Source: Calditrichota bacterium (GTDB taxonomy: Bacteria > CLD3). Taken from it: a stretch of 11,098 nucleotides of DNA. The notes under the pieces were generated by a model that saw nothing but the letters and a program-made list of their open reading frames with translations, had not been told where the DNA came from and did not search any database. The stretch lies in assembly GCA_008501735.1 (NCBI GenBank), contig QQUF01000027.1, positions 1 to 11,098 of the forward strand, in the 5' to 3' direction. Positions 1 through 11,098 of this stretch are shown in pieces. The position numbers and the translations under genes were made by a program. Within the stretch, counting starts at the first letter, position 1, and each line of letters opens with the position of its first letter.

Positions 1-1289
1 CTGCACAAAATAAAATTCAGAATTACTTTAAAGAAAAAGGTGTCGAAGCTCCAAAGTATGTTGGCAAAGACAAACCTGATGGAGACAGAGCTTTTGGACT
101 AGGAACTCTTGGAATAAATTCTGAAATACTTTTGCCAAAAGGAGAATACTTAAAAATAAAAGACGATTCGTTAAAAGTAGTTCGCGGAACTGTTCAAGCA
201 GATATTTTGAAAGAAGACCAAGCTCAAAACACTTGTATTTTTTCAACTGAATTTGCACTAAAAATGATGGGCGATATTCAAAACTTTTTCATTCAAAAAC
301 AAGTTAGGAATTACTACTCTGTTTCCATTTCTGGTTATCACATTGCAGAAGCAGGTGCAAACCCGATTACACAACTTGCTTTTACATTGGCAAATGGTTT
401 CACTTACGTTGAATACTATTTGAGTCGTGGAATGAATATTGATGATTTTGCTCCGAACCTTTCATTTTTCTTTAGTAATGGAATTGACCCTGAATACAGT
501 GTAATTGGAAGAGTTGCAAGAAGAATTTGGTCTTCTGCAATTAAATACAAGTACAAAGGAAATTCAAGAAGTCAGAAGTTAAAATATCATATTCAAACTT
601 CAGGTCGTTCTTTACACGCACAAGAAATTGATTTCAACGACATCAGAACTACTTTGCAAGCACTTTATGCGATTTACGACAACTGTAACTCTTTGCACAC
701 AAATGCTTACGACGAAGCAATTACGACTCCAACAGAAGAGTCAGTTCGTCGTGCAATGGCAATTCAGTTAATCATTAACAAAGAACTTGGTTTGACTAAA
801 AATGAAAATCCACTTCAAGGAGCTTTTATCATCGAAGAATTGACAGATTTAGTTGAAGAAGCTGTTTTGGCTGAATTTGAAAGAATTTCAGAAAGAGGTG
901 GTGTTCTCGGTTCAATGGAAACAATGTACCAACGTAGCAAAATTCAAGAAGAATCGCTCTACTACGAACACCTCAAACACAGTGGAGAATTTCCAATTAT
1001 CGGCGTAAATACTTTTGAAAGACCTTCACATTTAGCAAACGAAATTGACGGAAAAACTGAATTGATTCGCTCAACAGAAGAAGAAAAAGAGCAACAAATC
1101 AAAAATCTTCAAAATGTTTGGAAACGGAATTCTGGAATTACAGAAGAACGGCTTGAAACTCTCAAAAAAGTTGCAATTGAAGGCGGAAATATTTTTGAAG
1201 AACTTATGGAAACAACAAAGTATTGCTCTTTAGGTCAAATCTCAAAAGCACTTTACTTAGTCGGTGGCCAATACCGAAGAAATATGTAA
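1..1289 (+). CDS. icmF: Isobutyryl-CoA mutase fused (IcmF), C-terminal mutase part, 5' end outside window
   Basis: IcmF is a cytoplasmic coenzyme-B12 enzyme that interconverts isobutyryl-CoA and n-butyryl-CoA and carries its own B12-binding and MeaI-like G-protein chaperone domains. Only about 428 C-terminal residues of a roughly 1,100-residue protein are here. The frame is open from base 3 with no stop, so the gene begins upstream; the TTG at 132 is internal. The mutase barrel is recognised by [14 protein letters not shown], by [17 protein letters not shown], by [20 protein letters not shown], by [20 protein letters not shown] and by the terminal GGQYRRNM. At the substrate pocket, [15 protein letters not shown] has Gln (codon 225-227) where methylmalonyl-CoA mutase has the carboxylate-binding Arg207. 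This favours a non-carboxylated acyl-CoA substrate. A terminator follows 22 bases after the stop. The B12 and GTPase domains are presumed and not seen. Confidence 0.95.
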
Positions 1290-1310: not shown

Positions 1311-1344
1311 TGGCGGTAACCTTTAAGTTACTGCCATTTTTTTT
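1311..1344 (+). terminator. Rho-independent terminator of icmF
   Basis: A 10-bp stem (1311-1320 with 1327-1336) closes a 6-base loop and is followed by eight T at 1337-1344. In plus-strand RNA every position pairs, one as a G-U wobble. In minus-strand RNA the same position is an A-C mismatch and the downstream run is only weakly T-rich, so it should work mainly for icmF. The right arm overlaps the last codons of the convergent gene. Confidence 0.88.
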
Positions 1345-1988
1345 ATTTGAAACCAAACCTCATTAAATTCTTTGAAATAGATTTTAGAATTCCTATCAAA
1401 ATTGTAAAGTAACTCCCAAAGATTCTCCACTGTTCCCGACTGCAAACCCACTTTTTCAAGAATTTGGTAAAACTCTTTTGAATATTCTAAAACTCTCTCC
1501 TCTTTCAAATTCTCTAACCAATTTTCTAAGTTTTGATTCTTACTGACTTCCATTCCTTTGCAATTTTCATCAGGTGCAACTATGTAAAATTTTTCATTAA
1601 AACTTTCGTCTAAAGTTCGTGCAATCGGTGAAAGCTGACAGACAAAAGGTTTTCCTTTTGTCTTGTGAAGTTTACAACCAAATTTGTAATTTTCAATTTT
1701 TTCTAAAAAAGGACAAAGTTCGTTTTTGAATTTGATTTTACAGAAAGGCAAATTTAGTTTTTCATCAAAAACAATCTCAAGGATTTCTTTTTCAAAAAGG
1801 TAATTGGTTGTTACAACTTCTTTAAAACCAAATCTGCTTAGCCGAAAAATATCGTAAGGTTCTAACCAAACGTCTTGCAAACCTGAGCAACAAAGTCCAC
1901 ACATTTGGCATTCAAAATTAAATTCATTTTTAATTTCTTCAAATCCGTTTACCCGTTCAACCGTTTCTGAGTAAGATTTTCTTTTCAA
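1323..1988 (-). CDS. YkgJ-family CxxCxxCC metal-binding protein
   Basis: A 221-residue protein without signal peptide or membrane helix, so probably cytoplasmic. It has the family signature Cys27-x2-Cys30-x2-Cys33-Cys34 (CQMCGLCC), further cysteines at about 83, 92, 105 and 117, and the matching GCKLHKTKGKPFVCQLSP block. Members of this family are annotated as putative zinc- or iron-chelating (possibly Fe-S) proteins; no reaction is established. The N-terminal half holds all the cysteine motifs; the last 80 residues are helical and unassigned. The start is the TTG at 1986-1988, because an in-frame TAA lies at 1992-1994 and no ATG precedes the cysteine motif. No Shine-Dalgarno site is visible, so the start is the weak point. 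It converges with icmF and is divergent from the lipoprotein gene, apparently monocistronic. Confidence 0.8.
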   Translation of the reverse strand: MKRKSYSETVERVNGFEEIKNEFNFECQMCGLCCSGLQDVWLEPYDIFRLSRFGFKEVVTTNYLFEKEILEIVFDEKLNLPFCKIKFKNELCPFLEKIENYKFGCKLHKTKGKPFVCQLSPIARTLDESFNEKFYIVAPDENCKGMEVSKNQNLENWLENLKEERVLEYSKEFYQILEKVGLQSGTVENLWELLYNFDRNSKIYFKEFNEVWFQIKKMAVT

Positions 1989-3938: not shown

Positions 3939-4706
3939 ATGGAAACAATTTTAAAAACTCAAAATCTTAGCGTCGGAATTCAGAATCAAGTTTTTTTGAA
4001 GAACTTAAACATCGAAATTCCTAAAGGTGAAATTCTTTGGATTATCGGTAAAAACGGCTCTGGAAAAACTTCATTCTTGAAGACAGTTTTAAAATTTATC
4101 CCAATTATTGAAGGTGAAATTTTTGTAAACGGAAACTCTGTTAATGAAATTGACTTTGAAAGTCTTTCAAAATTGGCAGCGTTTGTGCCTCAAAAATACA
4201 TTGGTTCATTTGAAATTACAGTTATGGATTTTCTTTTAACCTCAAGACTTTCCCTAGAGAATAAAATTTGGGGAGTTTCTAAAAAGACAAAAGAAAAAAT
4301 TGACGGCTATTTAGAGTGGTACGGATTACAGAAATTCAAGAACAGGAAATTTTCTGAGTTAAGTGGCGGTGAGAGACAAAAAATCTTGATTCTCGGTGCT
4401 TTAGTCCAAGAAACAGAACTAATTCTTTTAGACGAACCTTTGAACTCTCTTGACCCTCATCATCAATTTGAAATCTGCGAAATTGCAATTCACCTTGCAA
4501 AAAACGAAAAGAAAGGTCTTGTGATTGTTACTCACGACTTAACTTTTCCGCTCAAAATAGGCGGTAAAGTTCTTGTTTTTGAAGGGAATGAGAAATTTTC
4601 TTTTGGAGAAGTTAACGAGATTTTATCAGAAGAATTTTTGACTAAAGTTTACGGTGTGAAGTTCAATTTTTTAGAGAGTCAAGGAAATAAAATCCCTGTT
4701 TTTTAA
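3939..4706 (+). CDS. ABC transporter ATP-binding protein, FecE/BtuD-like (siderophore/cobalamin importer type)
   Basis: A 255-residue ATPase subunit of full domain length that would power an inner-membrane importer. All nucleotide-binding motifs are intact: Walker A GKNGSGKT (37-44), Q-loop Gln85 (FVPQ), signature LSGGE (141-145), Walker B LILLDE (161-166), D-loop SLD and switch His199 (VTHD). The layout FVPQ...FEITVMDFLLTSR and the single short domain resemble the FecE/BtuD/FhuC group, which serves iron-siderophore, haem or B12 import. The substrate is inferred from family resemblance only. No permease or binding-protein gene is adjacent, so it is an orphan here. The ATG at 3939 has no strong Shine-Dalgarno site. 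A terminator-like repeat separates it from the lipoprotein gene. Its TAA shares bases with the stop of the convergent kinase gene. Confidence 0.88.
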   Translation: METILKTQNLSVGIQNQVFLKNLNIEIPKGEILWIIGKNGSGKTSFLKTVLKFIPIIEGEIFVNGNSVNEIDFESLSKLAAFVPQKYIGSFEITVMDFLLTSRLSLENKIWGVSKKTKEKIDGYLEWYGLQKFKNRKFSELSGGERQKILILGALVQETELILLDEPLNSLDPHHQFEICEIAIHLAKNEKKGLVIVTHDLTFPLKIGGKVLVFEGNEKFSFGEVNEILSEEFLTKVYGVKFNFLESQGNKIPVF

Positions 4707-5779
4707 ATTGGAATTTCAATTTGTGAAATAAAAATTTCATTTTTTCTTGAAGTCTCGAATTTAGATTTTTCTCCAAAGAACTGCTCCAACCTATTTTTGA
4801 CATTTTCCAAACCAATTCCAATTCTTTCAGGTTCTTCACAATTCATTTCACAAGGATTTGAAATTCTGATTATTAAAAAACCATTTTCAATTTTTGCTTC
4901 AATTTTAATTTTCCCATTTTCAACCACTTTAGAAAGTCCGTGTTTAATAGCATTTTCGCAAATCGGCTGTAAAATTAGCGACGGAACTTTTACCTTTTTT
5001 GCCTCTTCTTTACAATCGATTTCATAACTCAATCTATCGGAAAAACGGCTTTTCTCAATTGCGAAATATTTCTCCATTAGAATCAATTCTTCATCCAAAG
5101 TGATTAATTCGTCTGCTTTTATTTCTAACGTTGAGCGGAAAAAGTCAGACAGTAGAACAATCATTTTGCGAGCTGATTGTGGGTTTTGAGTAACTAAAGC
5201 GTTTACAGAATTAAGTGAATTGAATAAAAAATGTGGATTGATTTGAAATTTTAGAGCTTTGAGTTCCGATTCACGAGCAGAAATTTTAAGTTCCTTTTGG
5301 CGAATTTTATTCTTTTGAAATGTTTTGTAATCTTCAACTAAGTAAAAAATTCCGACTAAAACTACGTATTTCATCACTCCTTCTTTAAACTGCCACAAAA
5401 TGAAAGAATCGATTCTTATCGCCATTAAACCTTCGATTCCACCAACTTCGTAATTGAACTTGGTCAAAATCGTTAGCCACAAAGCTGAATAACAAAATGC
5501 CAAAATTAAATGAGTAAGAACTAATCGAAGTGGTGAGAAATCACTTAAATTCAAATTTTGGACGTGCCACCAGAACAAAAAGCTAAGAAAAATGAATGGA
5601 ATTTCATTGAAAGTTGAAATGATTAAAGAAAATAAAAGAGAATTAAACTTTGGAAAAACTGAGGAAGTTTGAAATTTAAAAACTAAAGTTGAAATTAGAA
5701 TCCAAATTACCCAACCAAGAAAGCCATAAAAAAAACTCTTCTTGGTTGGTAAAATTGATTTCAATTTAAAAATTTTCAC
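4703..5779 (-). CDS. LytS/YehU-type sensor histidine kinase
   Basis: A 358-residue inner-membrane sensor kinase. Four hydrophobic segments (about 14-33, 45-70, 84-105, 133-149) are followed by a short coiled linker and the His_kinase domain: QINPHFLFNSLNS with phospho-acceptor His183, LDEELILMEKYFAIEKSRF, the N box QPICENAIKHGL with Asn276, and the G box IGIGLENVKNRL (320-331). The usual DNG-like D box appears as RISNPC, a divergence. There is no periplasmic sensor domain, so input is probably through the membrane part or a partner. The GTG start at 5777-5779 overlaps the stop of the TPR gene by 4 bp (GTGA), with AAAGG just upstream, implying translational coupling. LytS-type kinases normally signal to a LytTR response regulator; none is in the window. 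The stop overlaps that of the convergent ABC gene. Confidence 0.92.
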   Translation of the reverse strand: MKIFKLKSILPTKKSFFYGFLGWVIWILISTLVFKFQTSSVFPKFNSLLFSLIISTFNEIPFIFLSFLFWWHVQNLNLSDFSPLRLVLTHLILAFCYSALWLTILTKFNYEVGGIEGLMAIRIDSFILWQFKEGVMKYVVLVGIFYLVEDYKTFQKNKIRQKELKISARESELKALKFQINPHFLFNSLNSVNALVTQNPQSARKMIVLLSDFFRSTLEIKADELITLDEELILMEKYFAIEKSRFSDRLSYEIDCKEEAKKVKVPSLILQPICENAIKHGLSKVVENGKIKIEAKIENGFLIIRISNPCEMNCEEPERIGIGLENVKNRLEQFFGEKSKFETSRKNEIFISQIEIPI

Positions 5780-6582
5780 TTAGCCTTTGCTTCAGAAATT
5801 TTTTCTTGAACTTGAGGAATTAAATTGTATTTAACCCAACCATTTTCAGGGTGAAGTTCCAAAGTTTTGTTGAATTCTTCGAGTGCTTCTTCATTTTCTT
5901 CATTTTTCATCAAAGCAATTCCGTACCAAGTGTGAACTTCAGAATTTCCCCATTCAGGGTAAAGTTCATTTTTAATTTTATATGTTTTAAATTTTTCAAT
6001 AGAAGTCGAAAACGCTTCTAAGGCTCTTTCCAAACTTCCACCAAACATTTTTGGGGTAAAAAATTGGTTTCTTGCAAATTCCAAATGAACTCTTGGGTTA
6101 TCAGAATCCAATTCTAAAGCCTGATTAATTTCACTTGATGCTTTTGAACCCAAAAACATTCCAAGAAAAGCATTCAAGCCAATTCGATTTCCATAAACTG
6201 AACTTAATAGAAGTCTGCTTTCTGCAAAATCTTCTTTAAACTCAATTGATTTCTCTAAATGTTCTTGAGCTTTTTTAAAATATTCGCCTGCTTTATCTTT
6301 ATTTTCATCAGTATCTTCACCTCGAACTACAATTCCTAATCGCCAATTAATGTAACCAATGTAGTAATGAGTTAAGAAAAGATGGTCAGAAGGCGTAACT
6401 CCTAAAATTCTTTCAGCCTTCGCATTTGCGGAAATAAAAAGCGATTCTTTCCAAGCAGAATCTGCAGCTTTAAGTTCACTTTTCAATTCAAGAGTTGCCT
6501 CTTTATAAGTCTCAAAATCCTGCTTGGCAAAGCATAGATTAACAGCGAATAAAACCCAAACAAAAATTAATGATTTTTTCAA
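5776..6582 (-). CDS. Exported tetratricopeptide-repeat (TPR) protein
   Basis: A 268-residue protein with a Sec signal peptide (MKK, hydrophobic core, predicted cleavage after CFA at residue 19), hence periplasmic or secreted. At least three TPR-like helix pairs are visible: about 98-131 (YFKKAQEHLEKSIEFKEDFA), 148-175 (INQALELDSDNPRVHLEFAR) and 215-250 (HTWYGIALMKNEENEEALEE then LELHPENGW). The segment TPKMFGGSLERALEAF joins two repeats. TPRs mediate protein-protein contact; no enzymatic motif is seen. The TTG start at 6580-6582 is well supported: AGGAG at 6592-6596 lies 9 bases upstream and the signal peptide begins there. It sits between the small membrane protein and the kinase with coupled junctions on both sides, so it may bridge receptor and kinase (inference). 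Confidence 0.85.
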   Translation of the reverse strand: MKKSLIFVWVLFAVNLCFAKQDFETYKEATLELKSELKAADSAWKESLFISANAKAERILGVTPSDHLFLTHYYIGYINWRLGIVVRGEDTDENKDKAGEYFKKAQEHLEKSIEFKEDFAESRLLLSSVYGNRIGLNAFLGMFLGSKASSEINQALELDSDNPRVHLEFARNQFFTPKMFGGSLERALEAFSTSIEKFKTYKIKNELYPEWGNSEVHTWYGIALMKNEENEEALEEFNKTLELHPENGWVKYNLIPQVQEKISEAKAK

Positions 6583-9160: not shown

Positions 9161-9862
9161 TTAATCTTTATTTCCACCGAAAATTCTAAGAAGGAAAATG
9201 AAAAGATTAATGAAATCTAAGTAAAGTGTCAATGCTCCGATAATTGCAACATTGTGCCCTGCTGCCGTATTCACGTCAACTTCGTAGCTGATTTGTTTGA
9301 GTTTTTGTGTGTCCCAAGCTGTCAATGCCATAAAGATTAAAACTCCTGCGTAACTTGTAATCCAATAAATCATTGAATTTTGGAAAAACATATTTACAAC
9401 TGAAGCAATTATTAAACCGATTAAAGCGGCAAAAGCAATTTGTCCAAGAGAACTTAAATCTTTCTTAGTAGTCATTCCCCAAAGTGTCATAAATCCAAAA
9501 GTTCCACCCGTAATGAAAAAGACTTGTGCGATTGAAGACATTGTGTAAGCTAAGAAAATCACCGACAAAGTAAGACCGTTTAAAGCTGCGTAACCAAGAA
9601 AAGCTGCTGTTGCAACTTGCGGCGACATATTTTGCACTCTTGAGCTAAGCCAAAAAACTAATCCAAGTTGTCCAAGAAATAGAACCCAAAAAAGTGGAGT
9701 TCCAAAAATCATACTTACCAATGATTCAGAAGAAGCCACTGCCATAGAAATAATTCCGGTCAGAAAAAGACCAATTGACATCCAAGCGTAAACTCTTCTA
9801 AAAAATGCGGCGGTTTGTTCATTCGATTCAATTCTTGCGAATGATTGAGTTTGGTCAAACAT
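9161..9862 (-). CDS. Bax inhibitor-1 / YccA-family membrane protein
   Basis: A 233-residue, seven-helix inner-membrane protein of normal family length. A short soluble N-terminus with FFRRVYAWMSIGLFLTG leads into the helices; recognisable family blocks are FLGYAALNGLTLSVIFLAYT, FGFMTLWGMTTKKDLSSLG, MALTAWDTQKLKQI and the C-terminal ALTLYLDFINLFIFLLRIFG. The Asp residues in TAWDTQ and in LYLDFIN correspond to the conserved acidic pair of the family, which in structurally studied bacterial homologues governs a pH-sensitive calcium leak. Other bacterial members (YccA) affect FtsH proteolysis, so the cellular role here is not fixed. The ATG at 9860-9862 has AAAGGAT (9868-9874) upstream. It has its own candidate promoter and a strong terminator, so it is probably transcribed alone. 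Confidence 0.93.
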   Translation of the reverse strand: MFDQTQSFARIESNEQTAAFFRRVYAWMSIGLFLTGIISMAVASSESLVSMIFGTPLFWVLFLGQLGLVFWLSSRVQNMSPQVATAAFLGYAALNGLTLSVIFLAYTMSSIAQVFFITGGTFGFMTLWGMTTKKDLSSLGQIAFAALIGLIIASVVNMFFQNSMIYWITSYAGVLIFMALTAWDTQKLKQISYEVDVNTAAGHNVAIIGALTLYLDFINLFIFLLRIFGGNKD

Positions 9863-9915: not shown

Positions 9916-11098
9916 CTATTTTTCTAAAACTGTTTCAAAATTTTTTGTATTCAAAACGTTTTCTCTTTGTGCTCCACCTCTCCTTGCAACTTTTATTCCA
10001 TATTTCACATCTTGCAAACCTGTCAGACTATGAGCATCAGGATTAATGCTAATTTTTACGCCTTTTTCAAAAGCTGATTGCATCAATCGCCAATCCAAAT
10101 CTAATCTGTGTGGGCTTGCATTAAGTTCAATACAAACATCATTTTGTGAGCAAGCATCAATTATTTTTTGCATATTTAATTTGTATTCAGGACGAGCTAA
10201 AAGCAATCTTCCAGTCAAATGCCCAAGCATTGTTGTGTAAGGATTTTCAATTGCTTTAATGAGACGTTTTGTCATCTCTTCTTCTGACATTTTAAAATTA
10301 GAATGAACCGAAGCAATGACAAAATCAAAATTTTCTAAAATCGAATCGTCGTAATCCAAACTTCCGTCGTTCAAAATATCGGATTCAATTCCTTTAAAGA
10401 TTTTGAAATTTTCCATTTCCTCGTTCAATTTATCAATTTCAGCGTGTTGTTCAGCAATTCTTGATTCTGTCAAACCATTTGCATAAAAAGCTGTCTTTGA
10501 ATGGTCAGAAATTCCGATGTAAGAATAACCCAAGTTTTGAGCTTCTTTTGCCATTTCTTCCAAACTTGCACTTCCGTCGCTCCAAGTCGTGTGATTGTGG
10601 AAAACTCCAAGTATTTCCTTTTCCTGCACCAAGTTTTCTGAAACTTTAGAACCTTTTTCAACTCCAAAATGTCGAACTTCTGGAAAAATATATTTTATTT
10701 TTTTTACTTGAAAAACCTCTTCTTCTGTTCTAAAACTTTCTTCTTGTGAAAAATGAAGCTCTTTCAGAAAATCCTCAGTTGAATTTTTCTCTAAGATTTT
10801 ACTTCCCAAATTTTCTTCTGAAACTGCTTCAATAACAAAATTTAATCCTGACAAAAGTGTACCAATGATTTTATTTTCTTCAAGGTTTAATTGACTAAAG
10901 TTTTCATTTCCACCAAATTCTAAAACAAATTCTTGTAATTCTTTTTCATTAATAATGGCTAAAAAATAAATTTCATCAACAACTTCAAGCCCCGTAATTA
11001 GTTGTCCGCAAAGAGTTAATTCCTGAGGCTTTAAGCTCTCAATCAAAAATTCTTTCAATTTCTCAGATTCCTCAAAAGCGACGTTGAGCAATTTGTAA
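9916..11098 (-). CDS. polX: PolX-family protein: degenerate polymerase palm plus intact PHP phosphoesterase domain, N-terminus outside window
   Basis: About 393 C-terminal residues of a PolX-type protein; the frame is open to the right edge, so the TTG at 11089-11091 (residue 1 below) is probably internal. Bacterial PolX joins a pol-beta-like gap-filling polymerase to a C-terminal PHP 3'-5' exonuclease and acts in DNA repair. The PHP part looks complete: HNHTTWSDG (165-173), ISDHSK (194-199), KGIESDI, ASVHSN, MLGHLTGR, ELNASPHR and INPDAH supply the metal ligands. Before it, IFPEVR matches the PolX linker. The polymerase part is unlike active PolX: the usual GS-RR-GDxD segment reads CGQLITGLEVVDEIYFLA (28-45), and the later VDLRVV segment reads FVIEAV (85-90), so all three catalytic aspartates seem missing. 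Nuclease activity without DNA synthesis is inferred. It lies 53 bases upstream of the BI-1-family gene, with no terminator seen between. Confidence 0.87.
   Translation of the reverse strand, partial: YKLLNVAFEESEKLKEFLIESLKPQELTLCGQLITGLEVVDEIYFLAIINEKELQEFVLEFGGNENFSQLNLEENKIIGTLLSGLNFVIEAVSEENLGSKILEKNSTEDFLKELHFSQEESFRTEEEVFQVKKIKYIFPEVRHFGVEKGSKVSENLVQEKEILGVFHNHTTWSDGSASLEEMAKEAQNLGYSYIGISDHSKTAFYANGLTESRIAEQHAEIDKLNEEMENFKIFKGIESDILNDGSLDYDDSILENFDFVIASVHSNFKMSEEEMTKRLIKAIENPYTTMLGHLTGRLLLARPEYKLNMQKIIDACSQNDVCIELNASPHRLDLDWRLMQSAFEKGVKISINPDAHSLTGLQDVKYGIKVARRGGAQRENVLNTKNFETVLEK

Follow-up and report, generated by a model that had tools for sequence, protein, structure and literature searches.

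The window analyzed here is the whole of one contig (C3, 11,098 nucleotides) of a 4.14-Mb genome assembled in 59 contigs. Its features are listed in Table 1 together with those of a second contig of the same genome, C52. One end of the window cuts through an IcmF gene and the other through polX. None of the neighbors of polX in the window was a repair gene, and no response regulator gene was found in the window beside the pair encoding the LytS-type kinase and the TPR protein.

Table 1 Positions of genes, domains, and residues on contig C3 (the window) and contig C52
Feature	Position	Strand	Remark
Fused isobutyryl-CoA mutase/GTPase (IcmF)	3-1289	+	C-terminal 428 aa; cut by contig end
CxxCxxCC (PF03692) putative zinc- or iron-chelating protein	1323-1988	-	
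LytS-type histidine kinase (PF06580) directly after TPR protein	4703-6582	-	Stop/start overlap of the two genes
Bax1-I (YccA-like) membrane protein	9161..9862	-	Downstream neighbor of polX
polX, 3′ part (palm, fingers, PHP)	9916..11097	-	393 codons; truncated by the contig end
PHP nuclease domain	9940..10623	-	Pfam PF02811, E 1.5e-12; structure match to PHP proteins
PHP ligand codons 1-5	10597-10599, 10591-10593, 10501-10503, 10384-10386, 10303-10305	-	
PHP ligand codons 6-9	10219-10221, 10126-10128, 10036-10038, 10030-10032	-	
NSTEDFL	about 10765..10785	-	Degraded counterpart of fingers dNTP motif TGSKxxN
V88	10834..10836	-	Counterpart of third catalytic carboxylate (VDL to FVI)
E42-I-Y44	10966..10974	-	Counterpart of carboxylates 1 and 2 (Thermus D198 and D200, alignment numbering); E42 10972-10974, Y44 10966-10968
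GQLIT	10993..11007	-	Counterpart of palm GSxRR; both arginines lost in the alignment
Contig overlap	11066..11096	.	31 bases, exactly identical to the start of contig C52
polX, 5′ part	C52: 3-494	-	164-codon ORF, same genome

Reconstruction of the full-length gene

The 5′ part of polX was located on contig C52, whose ORF carries the N-terminal HHH_8 domain and ends with the residues KLLNVAFEE, which are also present in the window ORF. Within this junction, the window's final two bases (11097-11098) mismatched C52 and changed the first codon of the window ORF from Asp to Tyr, probably as a result of a contig-end error. Joining C3 and C52 yielded the complete gene that had been sought by the sequence-only reading, encoding a protein of 547 aa. 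As its two parts lie on separate contigs and the terminal bases of the window conflict with the overlap, polX might be taken for a decaying pseudogene or an artifact of assembly at the contig ends. We consider this exceedingly improbable, since the joined frame was open for 547 codons without an internal stop, the PHP site was intact, and the sister genome, the only one of the same family compared, encoded an uninterrupted 550-aa ortholog (69% identity) that is likewise followed downstream by a Bax1-I gene. Furthermore, dN/dS for the whole of polX against the sister was estimated as about 0.15; this rough NG86 count is to be taken as indicative, given the saturation of dS at this divergence.

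Domain architecture and fold

The joined protein matched both HHH_8 and PHP of Pfam, and its domain order (8 kDa/HHH, thumb, palm, fingers, and PHP) was that of prokaryotic PolX (PolX1). No match to the thumb family PF14791 was found in the profile search. The sister protein aligned end to end with both solved bacterial PolXs; its best sequence match in the PDB was D. radiodurans PolX (2W9M, E 4.3e-80), followed by Thermus PolX, and its score against the NCBIfam PolX equivalog NF006375 was 398.8 bits, which is under the cut-off of 426.

The window part was modeled using AlphaFold2 with a mean pLDDT of 95.7 and a pTM of 0.90. All modeled palm strands (42-48, 67-73, 76-81, and 86-91) were formed. 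Superposition with VIA-align, as given by aligned ranges and rmsd, covered 386 of the 393 residues for Thermus PolX 3AU6 (2.0 Å, Z 43.0) and 375 residues for 2W9M (2.2 Å, Z 39.9). The palm, fingers, and PHP domains therefore match both structures in fold, and the extent of the superposition on Thermus PolX indicated that the protein retains the fold of a polymerase despite having lost the chemistry.

Polymerase site

The residues of the palm and fingers were compared in an alignment of 110 PolX rows, including Thermus and D. radiodurans PolX. The stretch CGQLITGLEVVDEIYFLA (codons 30-47 of the window ORF) corresponded to GSARR...DLD of Thermus PolX, in agreement with the palm motif proposed from the letters of the sequence, and the metal-site columns fell on E42, Y44, and V88. 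The pairing of FVIEAV with VDLRVV was likewise reproduced by the alignment. The metal-site triad was EYV here, ENT in the sister, and DDD in Thermus; three acids occupied these columns in 79 of the 110 rows, and the other 31 rows were altered. Because the sister is altered at the same columns and 79 of the 110 PolXs keep three acids, the altered triad is not attributable to chance or sequencing error. In the model, E42 and Y44 lay on the first palm strand and V88 on the last; thus, the acid-bearing strands exist with one acid at the three positions.

The canonical GSxRR motif was absent as well, its counterpart being GQLIT here and GKLVQ in the sister, so that both members of the family studied lack the arginine pair. 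Among the 31 altered rows, this pair (the columns of Thermus R190/R191) was kept in 27-28 despite the loss of the triad, which suggests that the arginines of GSxRR serve something other than nucleotide incorporation. In the fingers, GS, which was invariant in the canonical rows, was replaced by ST in both genomes, Lys by Glu, and Asn by Leu or Val (STE..L here). The earlier claim that no GSKEHN-like segment follows the palm thus held in part: a degraded counterpart, NSTEDFL, does exist, but G, S, K, and N of the motif are all replaced. The palm was undeleted (83 residues, compared with 82 in Thermus); deletions are frequent in noncanonical PolX but not required. With its altered triad and altered dNTP-binding residues, the protein was assigned to noncanonical PolX.

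Two residues past V88, the last palm strand carries a second glutamate, E90, in both genomes. Judged by the sequence alone, a weak or altered metal site in the palm is conceivable; E42 and E90 offer the one apparent way of building it, and some nucleotidyl transfer might persist there. Both residues are constant across the two genomes, in contrast to the positions of Y44 (N in the sister) and V88 (T in the sister), and the palm, complete in the modeled fold and of full length, has none of the deletions that are frequent in noncanonical PolXs. However, two of the three carboxylates, GSxRR, and all dNTP contacts of the fingers were lost together, the palm and fingers change fastest between the two genomes, and the AEE PolX of D. 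radiodurans, which has two glutamates at the site, shows no polymerase activity (PMC9226535). A palm that still works through E42 and E90 is therefore very unlikely.

PHP nuclease site

All nine PHP ligands were present in the alignment columns (H167, H169, H199, E238, H265, H293, E324, D354, and H356; HHHEHHEDH), as the sequence-only reading had stated. The nine ligands were also kept in all 31 altered rows, and HHHEHHEDH is the consensus in 98% of altered PolXs (PMC9226535). A 2026 survey reported that the PHP site of bacterial PolX is conserved in 95%, compared with 75% for the polymerase site (PMC12926913).

Phylogeny and constraint

In a quick full-length tree of 106 rows, the sister pair fell in a set of 14 rows, all of them altered (support 98), beside six Bacteroidota PolXs. 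As degraded palms might attract one another, the tree was rebuilt without the palm and fingers columns; the pair and the six altered Bacteroidota PolXs then formed a set of 8 (support 96). D. radiodurans PolX, on a long branch whose placement was uncertain, fell outside the Bacteroidota group in both trees. A single clade for all altered PolXs was rejected (p-AU 0.0009), a value to be read with care given the long branches; the rejection is in keeping with the 2022 description of several independent losses. The loss of the polymerase site was common to both genomes compared; as far as these two genomes can show, it is thus a feature of the family and not of one genome. In seven genomes of another family of the same class, no PolX-level match was found, and two of them gave weak PHP-domain matches.

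Identity to the sister was lowest in the palm (52%), followed by the fingers/linker (56%), and highest in PHP (78%). The mean identities of altered pairs were 42%, 53%, and 78%, respectively, and those of canonical pairs of similar overall divergence were 59%, 67%, and 70%. This profile indicated a shift of constraint away from the polymerase and toward the nuclease, with the gene overall still conserved.

Proposed function and repair context

Alignment, modeling, and phylogeny all support the earlier proposal that the polymerase site is lost while the PHP nuclease and the polymerase fold are kept. In 2022, the PolXs of D. radiodurans (AEE) and D. gobiensis (ARE) were reported to be polymerase-dead and to possess a Mn2+-dependent 3′-5′ exonuclease activity that resides in the PHP site (PMC9226535). 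By analogy with these Deinococcus proteins, polymerase activity would be absent here and exonuclease activity present. The gene thus very probably encodes a full-length noncanonical PolX that is polymerase-dead and acts through PHP as a Mn2+-dependent 3′-5′ exonuclease and 3′-end/AP-site processing enzyme. In the proposed mechanism, the PHP domain would cleave as such an exonuclease or process 3′ ends or AP sites, and the remaining domains (8 kDa, thumb, palm, and fingers) would most likely retain binding to DNA with gaps or breaks, whose 3′ end they would deliver to the nuclease. We infer this scaffold role of the dead polymerase fold, as well as the repair pathway that the enzyme would serve.

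The second, intact polX for which the sequence-only reading suggested a search was not found in either genome, whether the sister protein (E up to 10) or the thumb family was used as the query. The only HHH_8 match above the cut-off in the genome was that on C52, which was rejected as a second copy since it is the missing 5′ end of the same polX. At the thresholds used, neither a Ku gene, an ATP-dependent ligase domain, nor Nfo was found in either genome. Without Ku and an ATP-dependent ligase, classical bacterial NHEJ is unlikely; the absence of Ku is not unusual, as approximately half of the PolX-bearing Bacteroidetes lack NHEJ (PMC9226535).

Within the reading as a polymerase-dead nuclease, the role might be repair of abasic sites (AP endonuclease activity and 3′ clean-up in BER) and not the processing of double-strand breaks. 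The failure to find Ku, an ATP-dependent ligase domain, or Nfo in either genome favors this role, as do the AP-endonuclease and 3′-phosphodiesterase activities of PolX PHP domains (PMC9226535). Both genomes, however, encode an Xth-type AP endonuclease; PolX as the sole AP endonuclease was accordingly rejected, so that it is not the only candidate, and break-repair routes other than NHEJ would be compatible with the absence of NHEJ. We hold the abasic-site role to be plausible while leaning slightly against it. It is also conceivable, though unlikely, that decay has gone one step further in this lineage than in other noncanonical PolXs: the GSxRR arginines, which most polymerase-dead PolXs retain, are gone, the palm keeps its full length, and its surface may have taken on a new contact with DNA or a partner protein outside NHEJ.

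Comparison with known PolX proteins

Prostova et al. described 809 altered PolXs, 27.5% of their prokaryotic set, most of them in one cluster of Bacteroidetes and Deinococcus-Thermus; a hydrophobic residue at Asn, often Glu at Lys, and the loss of GS are typical of the altered proteins (PMC9226535). The protein studied here resembled this main cluster in its five domains, altered triad, intact HHHEHHEDH, position in the tree next to Bacteroidota, and degraded dNTP site, in which Asn is replaced by a hydrophobic residue and Lys by Glu. It differed in its EYV triad, the loss of both GSxRR arginines, its unshortened palm, and in that no Ku or ATP-dependent ligase was found. D. radiodurans PolX (2W9M) has the same fold, an altered triad (AEE), and the PHP ligands HHHEHHEDH, but retains RR of GSxRR, and its palm is 7 residues shorter (PMC9226535). 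T. thermophilus PolX (3AU2, 3AU6, and 3AUO) shares the domain order and fold, whereas it has DDD, GSARR, and TGSKAHS, and its first PHP ligand is Gln. The 2026 survey added PolX-like proteins without the whole polymerase region (PMC12926913). Such actinobacterial proteins and the stand-alone PHP protein YcdX (1M65) likewise have PHP without polymerase function; unlike them, the protein studied here keeps the polymerase fold.

Since altered PolXs were described and assayed in 2022 (PMC9226535), the present protein is an ordinary member of a described kind and leaves knowledge of the family unchanged. Its only additions are one more lineage and the loss of the usually kept RR pair. It represents one more bacterial lineage that apparently keeps PolX for the nuclease alone, and a nuclease-only PolX in genomes where Ku and ATP-dependent ligase were not found fits a role beyond NHEJ.

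Altered PolXs were also observed in Nitrospirota, and Nitrospira is absent from the main text of the 2022 paper on noncanonical PolX (PMC9226535). Eight MAGs (L044, L045, L046, L047, L048, L051, L053, and L060) formed an altered clade of their own, apart from the Bacteroidota cluster, with triads including SLS, SNT, GAV, and RAS. The altered PolXs of L059, L087, and L111 adjoined the canonical PolX of Manganitrophus (L116). Together, these patterns suggest that the polymerase site was lost separately inside one phylum.
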